The notes under the pieces are model-generated. The model made no database searches. It was given only the letters and a program-made list of their open reading frames with translations, and was not told the DNA's origin. The translations under genes were made by a program, and so were the position numbers. From Cyanobacteria bacterium REEB67 (lineage in GTDB: Bacteria > Cyanobacteriota > Vampirovibrionia > Obscuribacterales > Obscuribacteraceae), in contig JAGXAB010000023.1 in the NCBI GenBank assembly GCA_018971775.1, forward strand, positions 1 through 64,000: DNA of 64,000 nucleotides, in the 5' to 3' direction. Positions 43,481-47,577 of the stretch are shown here, in pieces. The first letter of the stretch is position 1; each line of letters starts with the position of its first letter.

Positions 43481-44233
43481 TTAAAAGGGTCGCTTGACTA
43501 TAGCTACGGCCTGCGAACCGCGGAAAAGCTGGGCTGTGCCGGCCGGTGTCACGACTTCGCCCAGGCGTTCCAGGCCGAGGCCGAGTAATTGGGTGCCGGC
43601 GGCAAAGGTGTCGGCTACACCGAGCACGGGCAGAGGGGTAGGCAGGTCGGTGTCGCGTTTGTCTTCGACGAGGATAATCTGCGGGTCTCGAGCCAGCTTC
43701 AAGGCGACGATGCGGCCCTGGCTTTCTACTTTATCCCAGGTGATTTTGGCTTCCAGTATGTGCTGGTAAAAATCCAGGTCGCGGTCGAAGTGGGCGGTGA
43801 AATACATCAGATAGACGATGCCGTCGTAAAGGGCCGGTTTTACAGGGGCGAGCGCCGGTATGCCGGTGAGCGTACTACCCTTACCCCGCCTCCGCTCCAT
43901 GCTGTGGATAAGCATTATGGCCGTGGTTCGCTGTTTGAATTCCATCGCCTTTTCGCTACGACCGCTCGCCTCGATCTGCTTGGCGATGCTCTGCAGACTG
44001 GATGCTACTTCCTTCTGGTTGTCCCCGTAACGCTCTTCGAAGGCCGTGACGATTTTAGCCAGGTCTCTGTCGGCTTGCTCCTGACTGGAATTATCCAGGG
44101 CCGAGATTGCCAGATCGAATAAAGCGTCGCGAGCTTCGGACATTGTTGCTATTGTTTCTACCAGGGGGATCGAGTCATTAATTCTAGCCTGTAAAAAGCT
44201 CAGTTGGATTTGTCTGAGTAACCAGCTATTCAT
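43481..44233 (-). CDS. Helical-repeat plus VOC (glyoxalase-like) protein
   Basis: 250 residues. The N-terminal 110 residues are helical, TPR-like (KIVTAFEERYGDNQKEVASSLQSIAKQIEASGRSEKAMEFKQRT). Residues 130-250 show the VOC pattern: GIVYLMYFTAHFDRDLDFYQHIL, GRIVALKLARDPQIILVED, then GTAQLFRGSQAVAIVKRPF. Metal ligands cannot be assigned with confidence. The start may be ATG 44143 (residue 31) rather than 44233, since neither has a clear ribosome site. Its 5' end faces the promoter of the aromatic leader. Confidence 0.78.
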   Translation of the reverse strand: MNSWLLRQIQLSFLQARINDSIPLVETIATMSEARDALFDLAISALDNSSQEQADRDLAKIVTAFEERYGDNQKEVASSLQSIAKQIEASGRSEKAMEFKQRTTAIMLIHSMERRRGKGSTLTGIPALAPVKPALYDGIVYLMYFTAHFDRDLDFYQHILEAKITWDKVESQGRIVALKLARDPQIILVEDKRDTDLPTPLPVLGVADTFAAGTQLLGLGLERLGEVVTPAGTAQLFRGSQAVAIVKRPF

Positions 44234-44283: not shown

Positions 44284-44312
44284 TTGACTTGATCTTTGGC
44301 CTGACATACTAT
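44284..44312 (+). promoter_or_regulatory. Sigma70-type promoter for the aromatic attenuator and DAHP synthase gene
   Basis: TTGACT (44284-44289) and TACTAT (44307-44312) are separated by exactly 17 bp. Transcription would begin near 44319-44321 and read about 400 nt of leader before the DAHP synthase gene at 44722. This is the only well-formed promoter seen between the divergent genes. Confidence 0.7.
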
Positions 44313-44396
44313 GGCACTCTGTACTCGAGGGCCACCAGTTGCGGCCCAAGCACTGACAAGTGGTTTAGTTAGCGGTCTATTTACCGGTCTATTTAT

Positions 44397-44447
44397 ATGA
44401 ACAGTTTCTGGTTTTATTTTGGCTTTGCGCAGGTTCACTTGGGGTGA
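44397..44447 (+). CDS. Aromatic leader peptide 1 (16 residues)
   Basis: ATG to TGA, encoding MNSFWFYFGFAQVHLG. Six of the seven residues 4-10 are aromatic: three kinds (Phe, Trp, Tyr) are covered. Scarcity of any charged aromatic tRNA would stall the ribosome at 44406-44426. The stop codon lies 27 nt before the terminator stem. The Shine-Dalgarno region is weak. It sits in an 11-bp tandem repeat (CGGTCTATTTA twice, 44373-44395), and no longer in-frame start exists because TAG occurs at 44370. Structure downstream (44432-44509) supports a regulatory peptide rather than a protein gene. Confidence 0.85.
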   Translation: MNSFWFYFGFAQVHLG

Positions 44448-44477
44448 GTTTAGGCTCGTTCGAAACCTGAGTGAACC
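44432..44477 (+). promoter_or_regulatory. Antiterminator of attenuator 1
   Basis: GGTTCACT (44432-44439) is perfectly complementary to AGTGAACC (44470-44477). The second arm overlaps the first four bases of the terminator stem, so the two structures exclude each other. A ribosome stalled on the aromatic codons leaves the first arm free. One that reaches the TGA at 44445 covers it and lets the terminator form. This is the classical trp/phe attenuation logic. Confidence 0.75.
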
Positions 44478-44509
44478 GCAGATTTCAAAGTCTGCGGTTT
44501 TTGTTTTTT
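44474..44509 (+). terminator. Intrinsic terminator of attenuator 1
   Basis: Nine-bp perfect stem AACCGCAGA / TCTGCGGTT with an 8-nt loop, followed by TTTTTGTTTTTT. It lies between leader peptide 1 and leader peptide 2. Confidence 0.93.
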
Positions 44510-44555
44510 CAAGCACCCGATAGAAAATTTTTGAAATTTAGCGAGGAATTATTCA

Positions 44556-44651
44556 GTGAAAAAGGCAGCACAGTGGTTTGGCTATTTCTCTTTTTATTTT
44601 TTCTGGTACCGACCCCGGGCTGGTGAACAACTACACGCAGTTGTGATCTGA
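44556..44651 (+). CDS. Aromatic leader peptide 2 (31 residues)
   Basis: GTG start with GAGGA (44543-44547) 8 nt upstream, TGA at 44649. Residues 7-18 are WFGYFSFYFFWY: ten of twelve are aromatic (two Trp, five Phe, three Tyr). The peptide begins MKKAAQ and ends in an ordinary mixed tail. Such a density is not expected by chance and matches leader peptides of phe and trp attenuators. It lies directly after terminator 1, so it is only transcribed when attenuator 1 is open. Confidence 0.88.
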   Translation: MKKAAQWFGYFSFYFFWYRPRAGEQLHAVVI

Positions 44652-44660
44652 CGGCCCGGG
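44614..44660 (+). promoter_or_regulatory. Alternative (antiterminator) pairing of attenuator 2
   Basis: CCCGGGCTG (44614-44622) pairs with CGGCCCGGG (44652-44660), nine bp with one G-T pair. It encloses a small hairpin ACAACT / AGTTGT (44627-44644). The 3' arm overlaps the 5' arm of terminator 2, so they are exclusive. Ribosomes stalled on the first aromatic codons leave 44614-44622 free. A ribosome on the last ones, or at the TGA, would mask part of the pairing, so the geometry is less standard than in attenuator 1. Confidence 0.65.
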
Positions 44661-44696
44661 ACCTCGCAGGAAGCGAAGGACCGGGTTTTTTATTTT
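44655..44696 (+). terminator. Intrinsic terminator of attenuator 2
   Basis: CCCGG (44655-44659) pairs with CCGGG (44681-44685), continued by CCT/AGG and CGC/GCG with small bulges and an AGGAA loop. It is followed by six T, A and five T. It ends 25 bp before the DAHP synthase start. Confidence 0.88.
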
Positions 44697-44721
44697 TCCC
44701 ATATTGGAGCATCGACTAATC

Positions 44722-45999
44722 GTGAAAGAAGCAAAACTTACCTTGAAGCAACAATCGGATCAACAAACTGTTGTCTCGATCAGCGATACCGTCAGATGTG
44801 GAGGGCGTGAGCTCCTCATCGTTGGCGGACCTTGTACGGTGGAAAGTGCCGAACAAATCGAAGCGGTGGCCAGCCGTCTCAGTCAACACCCCATTCAAGC
44901 GCTGCGCGGCGGCGTTTACAAACCCCGCACTTCCCCTTACGCCTTCCAGGGCATGGGCAAGGCCGGTCTAGATATCCTGGAAAGGGCCCGCAATAAGTAC
45001 GGTATGCCGGTAATCACCGAAGTAATGAGTGTCGAACAATTGCCGGAAGTAGCAGCGCAGGCCGATGTTTTGCAAGTGGGCAGCCGCAACATGCAAAATT
45101 TCGAATTGCTCAAGGCACTGGGCACTACGACCAAACCGATTTTGCTCAAGCGCGGTCTGTGCGCCACCATCGAAGAATTGATCATGGCCGCCGAATACGT
45201 CATGGCCTCCGGCAATCCCAATGTCATTCTTTGCGAGCGCGGTATCCGCAGCTATGACAGCTTCACTCGCAATGTCCTAGACCTAGGCGCTGTCGTCGCT
45301 CTCAAACAACTCACCCACTTGCCGGTAATCGTCGATCCCAGCCACGCCGCCGGCAAGAGAGAACTGGTCGCCGACCTGGCCCGGGCCGCCATCGCCTGCG
45401 GTGCCGATGGTTTGATCATCGAATGTCATCCGGAGCCGGAAAAATCAGTCTCCGACGCTCGTCAGGCTTTATCTCTTGATGATATGGCCGCGCTTGTCGG
45501 CAGCCTCGAGCTGATTGCTCAGGCCGTTGGTCGCACTCTACCTTTGCCTGTGGCTCGTCGTGCCCAGGCGGCCGCCGTTTGCGCGCCGGCCGAGTCTGAA
45601 ACCGCTCTGGTCCAATTCGACGCAGTGGCCAGACTGGCTGCTGCCAGAGCCAATATCGATGCCATTGATCAAGAAATTTGCGCCCTTCTGCAAAAGCGTA
45701 TGGCCTGCGGCACCGAAATCGCCGAAATCAAGGCAATCGGCGACCTGCCCGTCAAGGATACCGGTCGCGAAGTGATTGTCTTGACCAATGTCCGCGAATC
45801 AGCCAGCGATGTCGAAATCGGCCTTGCTCTGGAGGCAATCTACAAAACAGTGATTGCGGAGAGCGTTAAACTGCAAAAGCGCGTCCTGGCGGAAAGCTTG
45901 AAGCTTCCGCCGCAAATCTCCAAACAAACACTCCACAAACTGTCCCGCGTCCGCGCCCTGCGCCCCAATCGCATCGCCAGCAGCACTACAGTTATTTAG
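44722..45999 (+). CDS. aroF: DAHP synthase (class I-beta) fused to a C-terminal AroQ chorismate mutase
   Basis: 425 residues. DAHP synthase part (about 15-270): LLIVGGPCTVESAEQIE, RGGVYKPRTSPYAFQG, ITEVMSVEQLPEVAAQADVLQVGSRNMQNF, ILLKRGLCATIEELIMAAEY, VIVDPSHAAGKR and IIECHPEPEKSVSDA. The metal Cys, His, Glu and Asp positions are all there. AroQ part (about 305-390): RANIDAIDQEICALLQKRMACGTEIAEIKA. It makes the first shikimate intermediate and converts chorismate to prephenate, with the mutase probably serving as the feedback sensor. GTG 44722 has GGAG 12 nt upstream. TTG 44704 has none. It lies behind two tandem aromatic attenuators, and there is no other aromatic gene in the window. Confidence 0.93.
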   Translation: MKEAKLTLKQQSDQQTVVSISDTVRCGGRELLIVGGPCTVESAEQIEAVASRLSQHPIQALRGGVYKPRTSPYAFQGMGKAGLDILERARNKYGMPVITEVMSVEQLPEVAAQADVLQVGSRNMQNFELLKALGTTTKPILLKRGLCATIEELIMAAEYVMASGNPNVILCERGIRSYDSFTRNVLDLGAVVALKQLTHLPVIVDPSHAAGKRELVADLARAAIACGADGLIIECHPEPEKSVSDARQALSLDDMAALVGSLELIAQAVGRTLPLPVARRAQAAAVCAPAESETALVQFDAVARLAAARANIDAIDQEICALLQKRMACGTEIAEIKAIGDLPVKDTGREVIVLTNVRESASDVEIGLALEAIYKTVIAESVKLQKRVLAESLKLPPQISKQTLHKLSRVRALRPNRIASSTTVI

Positions 46000-46005
46000 A
46001 AGAGC

Positions 46006-47577
46006 CTAAAGCCTGGAGCGCCGCTCATCGTGGCGCTTGCCGCCATGCTCGGTGAGTACCGAAATAATGTCGAGATGATTTTGCCTTTCGGCATCGTCCA
46101 GGGGCGTATTGCCCCAGCGGTCCATTGGATTGACCTCGACACCGAGCTCGAGCAGATAGCGCAGGGAAGCCACTTTGCCCTCGCTGGCGGCAAGATGCAG
46201 GGCCGTGCGCCTGTCGTAATCGCAAGCCCCTGGGTCGAGGCCGCGGGCAACGAGCCGGCGCATTTCTCCGACATCGCCTTCGGAGGCGGCGCAGCAAAAA
46301 GCAATTGTGCCGCCAAGGCGCGAATCATAAATATTGCGACGGGGATCGCTGCGATCGTCGCGTAAGCCGAGCATGCTGTCGAATGTGTGAAACTTGAAAC
46401 GCGAAACCAGCTCGAGGCAGACATCGACTCCACGCACGCTATTGCCGAGCTCATCGAGCCGCGGCGACCAGACGGCCATGCCCAGGACATTGGGGACGAC
46501 GAGCATGATCGCGCCCGATACGCCGCTTTTGGCCGGTATGCCTACCCGGAAGGCGAACTCTCCAGAAAAATCGTACATGCCGCAAGATGACATCAAGGAT
46601 AGACAATTTTTTACATGGTCGGGGCGGAAGACCTGGGCTCCGGTAAGTGGGCAGTTGCCGCCATTAGCCAGGGTAGCCGCGATTATCGACATGGCCTGGG
46701 TGGTCACTTCTATCGAGCAGCACTGGAAATAAAATTCGAGCACTTCCTGCAGATTGGCATCTTTCGGAAAAGCTTTTTTCTCACGCATGAAATAACCAAG
46801 GGCAAAATTGCGATCGGCTGTTTGACGCTCAGAGAGGTAGACGGCATTGTCGAAGCCGATTTTCATCGAGCCGGCGCAGTCTTTCCATTTGCTCATCACA
46901 TAGTCGAAGCGATCCGAGGGTGGTGCTCCGGGCTTGATCAGGGCACCGCACATGATGGCACCGGCATTGATCATCGGATTGTGCGGCAGGCCTTTGGCGT
47001 TGAGGGTGAGCTCGTTAAATGTTTTGCCGCTCGGCTCGGTGCCTACATAGCGGTGCAACACTGCTTCGCCCTGTTCTTCCAGGGCCAGGCAATAAGTAAT
47101 TGGCTTCGAGCAAGACTGCACGCAAAAGAAATCTTCGCTGTCGCCGATGTCGAAGCGCTGGCCGTCGATGGAGCATATCGACAGGCCAAATTTATCGGGC
47201 GAGACCCTCTCCAGCTGAGGAATATAATTGGCCAGATGACCTTCGTGATTGGCCTCGACCTTTTCGAAAATTTTGGCTACGGCCTGGGAAAACTCGGCGA
47301 ATTGCGGTATGGCCAGTTGTCCGCTCAAGACATTTTCGAAAAGAGTGGGACTGATTTCTTGCAAGGTGCCAAATTCGGAGGGTGTGATAAAGTCCGGCTC
47401 CAGACCCTGACTGATAGCCAGGGTCTGATTTTTCTTGAGCAGTTTGAAGAGCGAGACTACCCGCGGATCGTCAGATCTGATGCCGCTTTCGCTGAAGACG
47501 TCAATGAGCGCCTGCCGCGATACGCGATTTTCTTTGTCCGCGTAAGCCTGAAATAGTTTGTTAGGCTGTTCGCTCAT
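46006..47577 (-). CDS. glsA: Glutaminase with N-terminal helical domain and C-terminal ankyrin repeats
   Basis: 523 residues, against about 310 for ordinary bacterial glutaminase. N-terminal EF-hand-like helical domain (LFQAYADKENRVSRQALIDVFSESG...), then the serine-dependent glutaminase core: FFCVQSCSKPITYCLAL (Ser-x-x-Lys pair), PHNPMINAGAIM, SERQTADRNFALGYFM and SGVSGAIMLVVPN. Ankyrin repeats at about 435-515 (DYDRRTALHLAASEGKVASLRYLLELGVEVNPMDRWGNTPLDDA). This three-part layout is that of animal kidney/liver glutaminases. It converts glutamine to glutamate and ammonia in the cytoplasm. Convergent with the DAHP synthase gene (6-bp gap). Confidence 0.94.
   Translation of the reverse strand: MSEQPNKLFQAYADKENRVSRQALIDVFSESGIRSDDPRVVSLFKLLKKNQTLAISQGLEPDFITPSEFGTLQEISPTLFENVLSGQLAIPQFAEFSQAVAKIFEKVEANHEGHLANYIPQLERVSPDKFGLSICSIDGQRFDIGDSEDFFCVQSCSKPITYCLALEEQGEAVLHRYVGTEPSGKTFNELTLNAKGLPHNPMINAGAIMCGALIKPGAPPSDRFDYVMSKWKDCAGSMKIGFDNAVYLSERQTADRNFALGYFMREKKAFPKDANLQEVLEFYFQCCSIEVTTQAMSIIAATLANGGNCPLTGAQVFRPDHVKNCLSLMSSCGMYDFSGEFAFRVGIPAKSGVSGAIMLVVPNVLGMAVWSPRLDELGNSVRGVDVCLELVSRFKFHTFDSMLGLRDDRSDPRRNIYDSRLGGTIAFCCAASEGDVGEMRRLVARGLDPGACDYDRRTALHLAASEGKVASLRYLLELGVEVNPMDRWGNTPLDDAERQNHLDIISVLTEHGGKRHDERRSRL

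Follow-up and report, generated by a model that had tools for sequence, protein, structure and literature searches.

How is transcription set for a gene at the entry to aromatic amino acid synthesis when two short, aromatic-rich open reading frames (ORFs), each followed by a terminator, lie between the gene and its promoter? This question is raised by positions 1 to 64,000 of contig JAGXAB010000023.1 of Cyanobacteria bacterium REEB67, part of a 6.7 Mb draft genome from the order Obscuribacterales; we refer to this whole 64,000-nucleotide stretch as the window. The gene, on the forward strand at 44722-45999, encodes a class A DAHP (3-deoxy-D-arabino-heptulosonate 7-phosphate) synthase fused to a type II chorismate mutase (Pfam DAHP_synth_1 + CM_2). 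We argue that, very probably, it is preceded by two ribosome-controlled attenuators of the same sensing class, arranged in series.

Two predicted attenuators before one gene

All elements of the leader lie on the forward strand. The first is a sigma-70 type promoter, TTGACT-N17-TACTAT, at 44284-44312 (-35 TTGACT at 44284-44289, -10 TACTAT at 44307-44312, spacer 17). It is followed by the 16-codon leader ORF 1, MNSFWFYFGFAQVHLG (44397-44447; ATG at 44397, TGA at 44445-44447), and by intrinsic terminator 1, GAACCGCAGA/TCTGCGGTTT with a T-rich tail (44473-44509; stem 44473-44500, tail to about 44509), with a predicted folding energy of -16.3 kcal/mol (z -5.7). A Shine-Dalgarno-like GAGGAA (44543-44548) then stands 7 nucleotides 5' of the 31-codon leader ORF 2, VKKAAQWFGYFSFYFFWYRPRAGEQLHAVVI (44556-44651; GTG at 44556, TGA at 44649-44651), and intrinsic terminator 2 (44654-44697; stem 44654-44686, T-rich tail to about 44697) is predicted to fold at -20.8 kcal/mol (z -3.3), with 1/200 shuffles equally good. 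The gene itself starts with GTG at 44722, preceded by GGAG at 44706-44709. Each terminator has a competing upstream pairing. Antiterminator 1 is predicted between 44432-44443, within the ORF 1 tail and ending just 5' of the stop codon, and 44466-44477, which overlaps the 5' arm of terminator 1. Antiterminator 2 is predicted between 44614-44622, within ORF 2 and here upstream of the stop codon instead of at it, and 44652-44660, which overlaps the 5' arm of terminator 2. Both antiterminators and both terminators show covariation in relatives, as described below. The residue content is F4 Y1 W1 in leader 1 and F5 Y3 W2 in leader 2. A preliminary description of this locus had proposed the same succession of promoter, ORFs, terminators and gene, an upstream pairing competing with each terminator, and Trp, Phe and Tyr in each leader peptide, and we find every one of these elements in place.

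In the mechanism we propose, the two attenuators would act in series on transcription from the one promoter, both sensing the same class of amino acids. When charged Phe, Tyr or Trp tRNA is short, a ribosome would stall early in the aromatic cluster and leave the ORF tail free; the free tail would pair with the 5' arm of the terminator, which would be blocked, and RNA polymerase would continue. A ribosome reaching the stop codon would cover the antiterminator arm, the terminator would form and transcription would stop, leaving premature 3' ends. Full-length mRNA would require readthrough at both gates, and we infer that the two readthrough probabilities multiply.

Simple scans are unconvincing on their own, with 2 promoters against 0.7 expected and 1 terminator against 0.8 expected, terminator 2 being missed, and the weight of the argument rests on comparison with relatives.

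Recurrence upstream of class A DAHP synthases

The comparison covers the Cyanobacteriota; in one search, 80 loci were kept of 208, all with cyanobacterial titles. Set A is made up of the regions upstream of 146 closely related DAHP synthase genes (class A), of which the order contributes 46, named genomes 72 and a sample of the phylum 28. It excludes 8 duplicates and the window copies (L001, L170); two pairs of its loci (L173/L110 and L177/L162) are identical over 400 nucleotides, giving 144 distinct loci, and upstream sequence is short in 7. Set B comprises 44 of 54 more distant DAHP synthases (46-58% identity), the remaining 10, one of them a 200-nucleotide fragment (L212), having been removed for lack of a detected active-site motif.

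Under a fixed criterion of two non-overlapping ORFs, each with at least 5 F/Y/W in 8 residues, an aromatic ORF pair lies upstream of 113/146 class A genes. The opposite strand of Set A yielded no pair in 146 regions (a single ORF in 4), and the more distant DAHP synthases none in 44 (a single ORF in 1). We also considered chance ORFs in T-rich DNA and rejected them: pairs are lacking on the antisense strand, in shuffles and before the more distant DAHP synthases, mononucleotide shuffles having two ORFs in 1/730 cases. When a unit is defined as a terminator with an aromatic ORF at most 100 nucleotides upstream, at least two units are found at 115/146 class A loci versus 0/44 of the more distant DAHP synthases. 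By group, these are 25/46 in Obscuribacterales, 66/72 in the named genomes and 24/28 in the phylum sample, and looser distances raise the total to 117/146. Some of the misses reflect contig edges or detection limits, such as leader 2 ORFs whose terminator falls outside the criterion. Photosynthetic cyanobacteria such as Nostoc are among those with tandem units, with leaders such as MLNTNSYFYFWFRVVHRE and MTYFSSWFYGFYFWPRINSG.

We call each leader ORF with its helices a module. The promoter and folding tests used the loci with two detected units, namely 40 of 48 for module 1 and 57 of 59 for module 2. A TTGACN-N16-18-TAnnnT promoter was found within 130 nucleotides upstream of leader 1 in 38/40 non-redundant loci, compared with a mean of 0.3 and a maximum of 3 in mononucleotide shuffles. 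Together with the alignments below, the comparison shows that the promoter, both ORFs, both predicted terminators, both predicted alternative helices and the aromatic class of the codons are conserved.

Covariation of the alternative helices

In module 1, the leader tail GGTTCACCTGG is predicted to pair with CCAGGTGAACC, whose last bases open terminator GAACCGCAGA; in module 2, AGTTCCGGGT would pair with ACCCGGAACT, which contains the 5' arm of the terminator. We examined these helices in two hand-picked alignments, A1 for module 1 (46 of the 48 non-redundant sequences) and A2 for module 2 (46 of 59), and counted the full 48 and 59 afterwards. In A1, 93.8% of cells are paired in antiterminator 1, with 8/11 pairs doubly changed, and 95.4% in terminator 1, with 4/9 pairs doubly changed. 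In A2, the values are 83.2% and 6/10 for antiterminator 2 and 92.5% and 7/9 for terminator 2. For all four helices, 0/500 shuffles matched the observed cells paired, double-change cells or covariation score, and slid versions of the helices were lower on cells paired and covariation score. The unselected sets gave similar pairing, at 93.8% (antiterminator 1), 95.1% (terminator 1), 81.7% (antiterminator 2) and 89.8% (terminator 2). Unconstrained RNAalifold returned the antiterminator plus the upper terminator for module 1 and the terminator for module 2. Native pairs of leader arm and terminator arm are stronger in the mean than between-locus swaps (0/2000 permutations as strong), an effect confined to the mean: locus by locus, the native partner has a middling rank, with medians of 5.5 of 48 in module 1 and 9 of 59 in module 2. 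The alignments point to a mutually exclusive antiterminator helix that is kept with compensatory changes in both modules. Aligning relatives had been proposed beforehand as the check on this locus, and in both modules the stems covary and the aromatic codons of both ORFs are conserved.

The stop codons are placed where such a switch would need them. In 45/48 aligned module 1 sequences, the codon begins 3 nucleotides after the arm; in 49/59 aligned module 2 sequences, it falls on the arm's last base. A terminating ribosome should therefore mask the arm and an early-stalled ribosome should not. Leader 1 has a conserved V-H tail, with the codon GTT in 44/48, because the antiterminator arm appears to require it, and the conserved 'VH' and 'SPG/SG' peptide tails can be explained by RNA pairing. 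Conservation by codon position was uninformative as a coding test, since pairing fixes the third positions of the ORF tails and F/Y exchanges raise position 2.

That the peptide tail follows the RNA arm bears on whether the leaders might instead control translation, or encode peptides that act in trans, with the terminators as a by-product. Trans-acting roles have been reported for leader peptides in other systems, among them peTrpL (PMC7298713). At this locus, terminator 2 stops about 24 nucleotides before the gene start and excludes the gene's Shine-Dalgarno sequence, and terminators with T tracts are conserved at both positions. We regard translational or trans control as very improbable.

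Aromatic codons and duplicated genes

The clusters of both leaders are dominated by aromatic codons. Codons 1-6 of the leader 1 tail are aromatic in 248/288 cases (51 of these TTC or TAC), with a further 13 being one-step neighbours, and the leader 2 cluster has 247/324 aromatic codons and 14 one-step neighbours, in counts that exclude L002 (the window itself), L003, L009, L012 and L169. What is held is class and not identity: F, Y and W interchange.

This pattern helps to weigh a second alternative, in which a T-box, a riboswitch or another RNA that binds a ligand or tRNA controls the gene and the aromatic ORFs are incidental. Conserved RNA structures with terminators upstream of an amino acid gene would suit such an RNA, as would a GTCRYG motif (often GTCATGC) found 1-5 nucleotides after the leader 2 stop in 20/57 module 2 spacers (shuffled mean 1.0) and in 0/40 of module 1. 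The motif is possibly a pause signal. The Rfam trpB motif also matches module 1 below threshold, at 20 bits against a gathering score of 59 (E 3.2). Against this, the conserved paired segments sit at the ORF tails, the codons keep their class while F, Y and W exchange, and no Rfam family matched at gathering score in ten loci, the window leader giving sub-threshold matches only. We give a ligand-binding RNA hardly any credence. On the same Rfam searches, we rejected assignment of the element to a known RNA family, whether leader, T-box or riboswitch.

Duplicated genes suggest how the codons change. In genus g8, three genomes carry a second copy that is Tyr-rich in both leaders (L033, L041 and L046; one clade, 100/98), and Tyr codons number 0, 1 and 0 in the other leader-bearing copies of those genomes (L025, L020 and L015, respectively). 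Among genomes without a Tyr copy, four relatives of this clade (L005, L008, L010 and L030) have 2, 3, 3 and 5 Tyr codons; three of them have only leader 1. A similar split occurs in G030, where L040 is Tyr-rich in both leaders and L031 has zero Tyr. In G026, one copy has its leader 1 off the contig and a leader 2 rich in Tyr and Trp; the clusters of the other copy are Phe only. Within the order, the Tyr fraction of leader 1 correlates with that of leader 2 at rho 0.95 (n=24), or 0.89 without the Tyr-rich copies (n=19), values uncorrected for kinship. The two gates appear, from their codons, to be tuned together within the order, unlike the two attenuators of Salmonella mgtCBR discussed below.

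A further clade of extra class A copies (L032, L042, L043 and L045; 100/95) has no detected leader-terminator units. Here, the attenuator may have been lost or may never have accompanied the duplicate.

Folding with a ribosome, and a possible single sensor

We folded the modules co-transcriptionally with ribosome masking. In the window, the terminator arm is predicted to be paired upstream at 0.80 in module 1 and 0.75 in module 2 when the ribosome is placed on the first aromatic codon; for a ribosome at the stop codon, these values are 0.46 and 0.15. Across loci, the expected switch was predicted in 51/57 module 2 cases (shuffled controls 145/285) and in 26/40 module 1 cases (66/200).

Several observations nonetheless weigh against two working gates. 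Co-transcriptional folding exceeds its controls, but these are high, and the module 1 result, at only 26/40, is modest. When the module 1 ribosome is stalled as late as the final aromatic codon, the simulations release the arm in just 2/40 loci. In equilibrium folding with the whole terminator present, the switch was found in only 6/40 and 19/57 loci and in neither window module, so that the model would need kinetic control. The count of doubly changed pairs was reached by 13/500 shuffles for terminator 1 and 28/500 for antiterminator 2. The reference sets are Nostoc-rich and the statistics ignore kinship, and the correlation between the Tyr content of leaders 1 and 2 falls to only 0.39 over all 117 loci. 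G031 has zero Tyr codons in both leaders, yet no Tyr-type copy was found in this genome, which is 66% complete. Only module 1 was detected at L005, L008, L010 and L197, no unit at L032, L038, L042, L043 and L045, and at L195 no terminator was detected for an ORF resembling leader 2.

The window genome itself departs from the conserved pattern. Leader 1 has no evident Shine-Dalgarno sequence. Leader 2 ends in a stop codon placed 26 nucleotides beyond the antiterminator arm, unlike the geometry of most relatives, a feature absent from the preliminary description; a ribosome terminating there would sit on the terminator arm instead. In G048, from the same genus, the leader 2 stop is displaced too, by 12 codons or fewer. 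The window's module 2 also scores low, at 37 bits against a best of 70. With the stop displaced in this way, gate 2 may be weaker here or may work differently.

The loci with module 1 alone, the off-geometry leader 2 of the window genus and the low module 2 score could all be accommodated if only one module were a working sensor, with the other being a duplicate that is superfluous or in decay, or no more than a terminator holding basal transcription down. Such an account does not readily explain why aromatic codons and covarying alternative helices are kept in both modules, or why Tyr content is matched within the order, with both leaders Tyr-rich in Tyr-type copies. We consider a single sensor unlikely, and continue to favor two attenuators in series.

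Comparison with known attenuators

The trp, phe and his operons of Enterobacteria are the classical ribosome-mediated attenuators. The predicted units resemble them in having a leader ORF with regulatory codons, an intrinsic terminator, a mutually exclusive antiterminator and a target in the cognate pathway. They differ in that two complete units of the same codon class stand in series, mixed Phe/Tyr/Trp codons precede the first enzyme of the common pathway, and most members have the stop codon right at the antiterminator arm; they also lack an Rfam match at gathering score and come from a different phylum. Passages of PMC3641672 describe the trp attenuator (section 11) along with two tandem systems. 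The Salmonella mgtCBR leader, with mgtM and mgtP, likewise carries two short ORFs and two attenuator units, but its two ORFs differ in what they sense (ATP and proline), and its stem-loops are unlike intrinsic terminators, whereas the units described here have intrinsic terminators and, judged by codon content only, the same codon class in both. The tandem riboswitches of Bacillus clausii metE also form two intrinsic-terminator gates in series; these sense two small molecules directly and not through leader translation. Closest in target is the Corynebacterium glutamicum aroF leader, described in passages of PMC4046766, where an aromatic (Phe-Tyr-Phe) leader peptide precedes a DAHP synthase gene. 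That leader is reported as single and putative, belongs to a different phylum and is likened here by description.

Among the matches listed, the open-access literature showed no report of leader-peptide attenuation in cyanobacteria; subscription papers lie mostly outside that scope, and absence is not proof. Within the same limits, this agrees with the earlier remark that no tandem pair was known in the cyanobacterial lineage. Passages of PMC4833913 state that there are no reliable data on attenuation in cyanobacteria, and those of PMC2965389 list leader peptides in Proteobacteria and Actinobacteria and add Firmicutes. The review of cyanobacterial control systems in PMC7007895 mentions no leader-peptide attenuation among the matches listed (12 of 27 passages). 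Elsewhere, passages of PMC1173090 refer to 'two attenuator units' for the Streptococcus pneumoniae aromatic supraoperon, the kind of unit not being stated in them, and PMC8274638 describes two leader peptides in ermB.

If the double-gate reading is true, transcription and translation would be functionally coupled at this cyanobacterial locus, and the switch, being multiplicative, would be sharper than one attenuator can give. As the pair is conserved in Nostoc and relatives, tractable strains could be used to ask whether transcription and translation are coupled closely enough in cyanobacteria to support attenuation, what advantage a second like gate in series brings, and how gene duplication is followed by rewriting of the leader codons. 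The arrangement may also be relevant to cyanobacteria engineered for aromatic products, since this gene marks the entrance to the shikimate pathway.

Distribution and relocation of the tandem pair

A module 1 covariance model gave 42 matches in 37/53 genomes of the order and, under strict filters by which weak matches are lost, matched 29/292 sampled genomes of the phylum. It was present in 28/29 phylum-sample genomes with a class A DAHP synthase (the window's included; the exception is G195) and in 1/263 without the class A gene. The tandem pair is widespread but tied to one gene class that is absent from most sampled genomes. The pair put forward in the preliminary description is real and supported; it is not confined to the lineage of this genome, recurring in photosynthetic cyanobacteria, with codons that differ between gene copies. 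All 41 photosynthetic genes group in a single clade (99/93) of the protein tree, amid unresolved Obscuribacterales branches, a topology compatible with vertical descent or an old transfer alike. On balance, we lean towards a widespread, probably ancient double gate of two same-specificity attenuators in series, whose codons would have been retuned together upon gene duplication and which would have moved as a pair onto another gene.

The candidate for such a move is in G022, where the tandem attenuator (L240, contig G022:C20, minus strand; module 1 at 2893-2991, module 2 at 2718-2818) has Tyr-rich leaders, SYYYYCFLEVHQG and CYYGYAYQARGEPRVT. Downstream of it come a pvcA-type gene (Pfam DIT1_PvcA), a gene of the TauD family and, identified by eye, an FAD-monooxygenase-like ORF. 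The pair has apparently been carried onto the pvcA-type gene, which probably consumes an aromatic amino acid; starvation-driven induction would not make obvious sense for such a gene.

The other module 1 matches away from class A genes within the order are at an apparent remnant in G005 and at a contig edge in G039, where the module stands before an apparent DAHP synthase start. Module 2 also has weak matches elsewhere. The G005 match (L241, G005:C175:548-649) and the one phylum-sample match in a genome without the class A gene (L247, G082:C48:74050-74137) both precede apparent DAHP synthase gene remnants, that in G005 resembling the chorismate mutase part. These assignments were made by eye. 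At both loci, the leader element looks to have outlived its gene.

In the window, the DAHP synthase-chorismate mutase gene seems to stand alone, the large flanking ORFs at 43481-44233 and 46006-47577 being on the opposite strand. The same genome encodes a second DAHP_synth_1 protein (G000:C147:26386-27258, 316 bits), and the attenuated gene may therefore not be its sole DAHP synthase.

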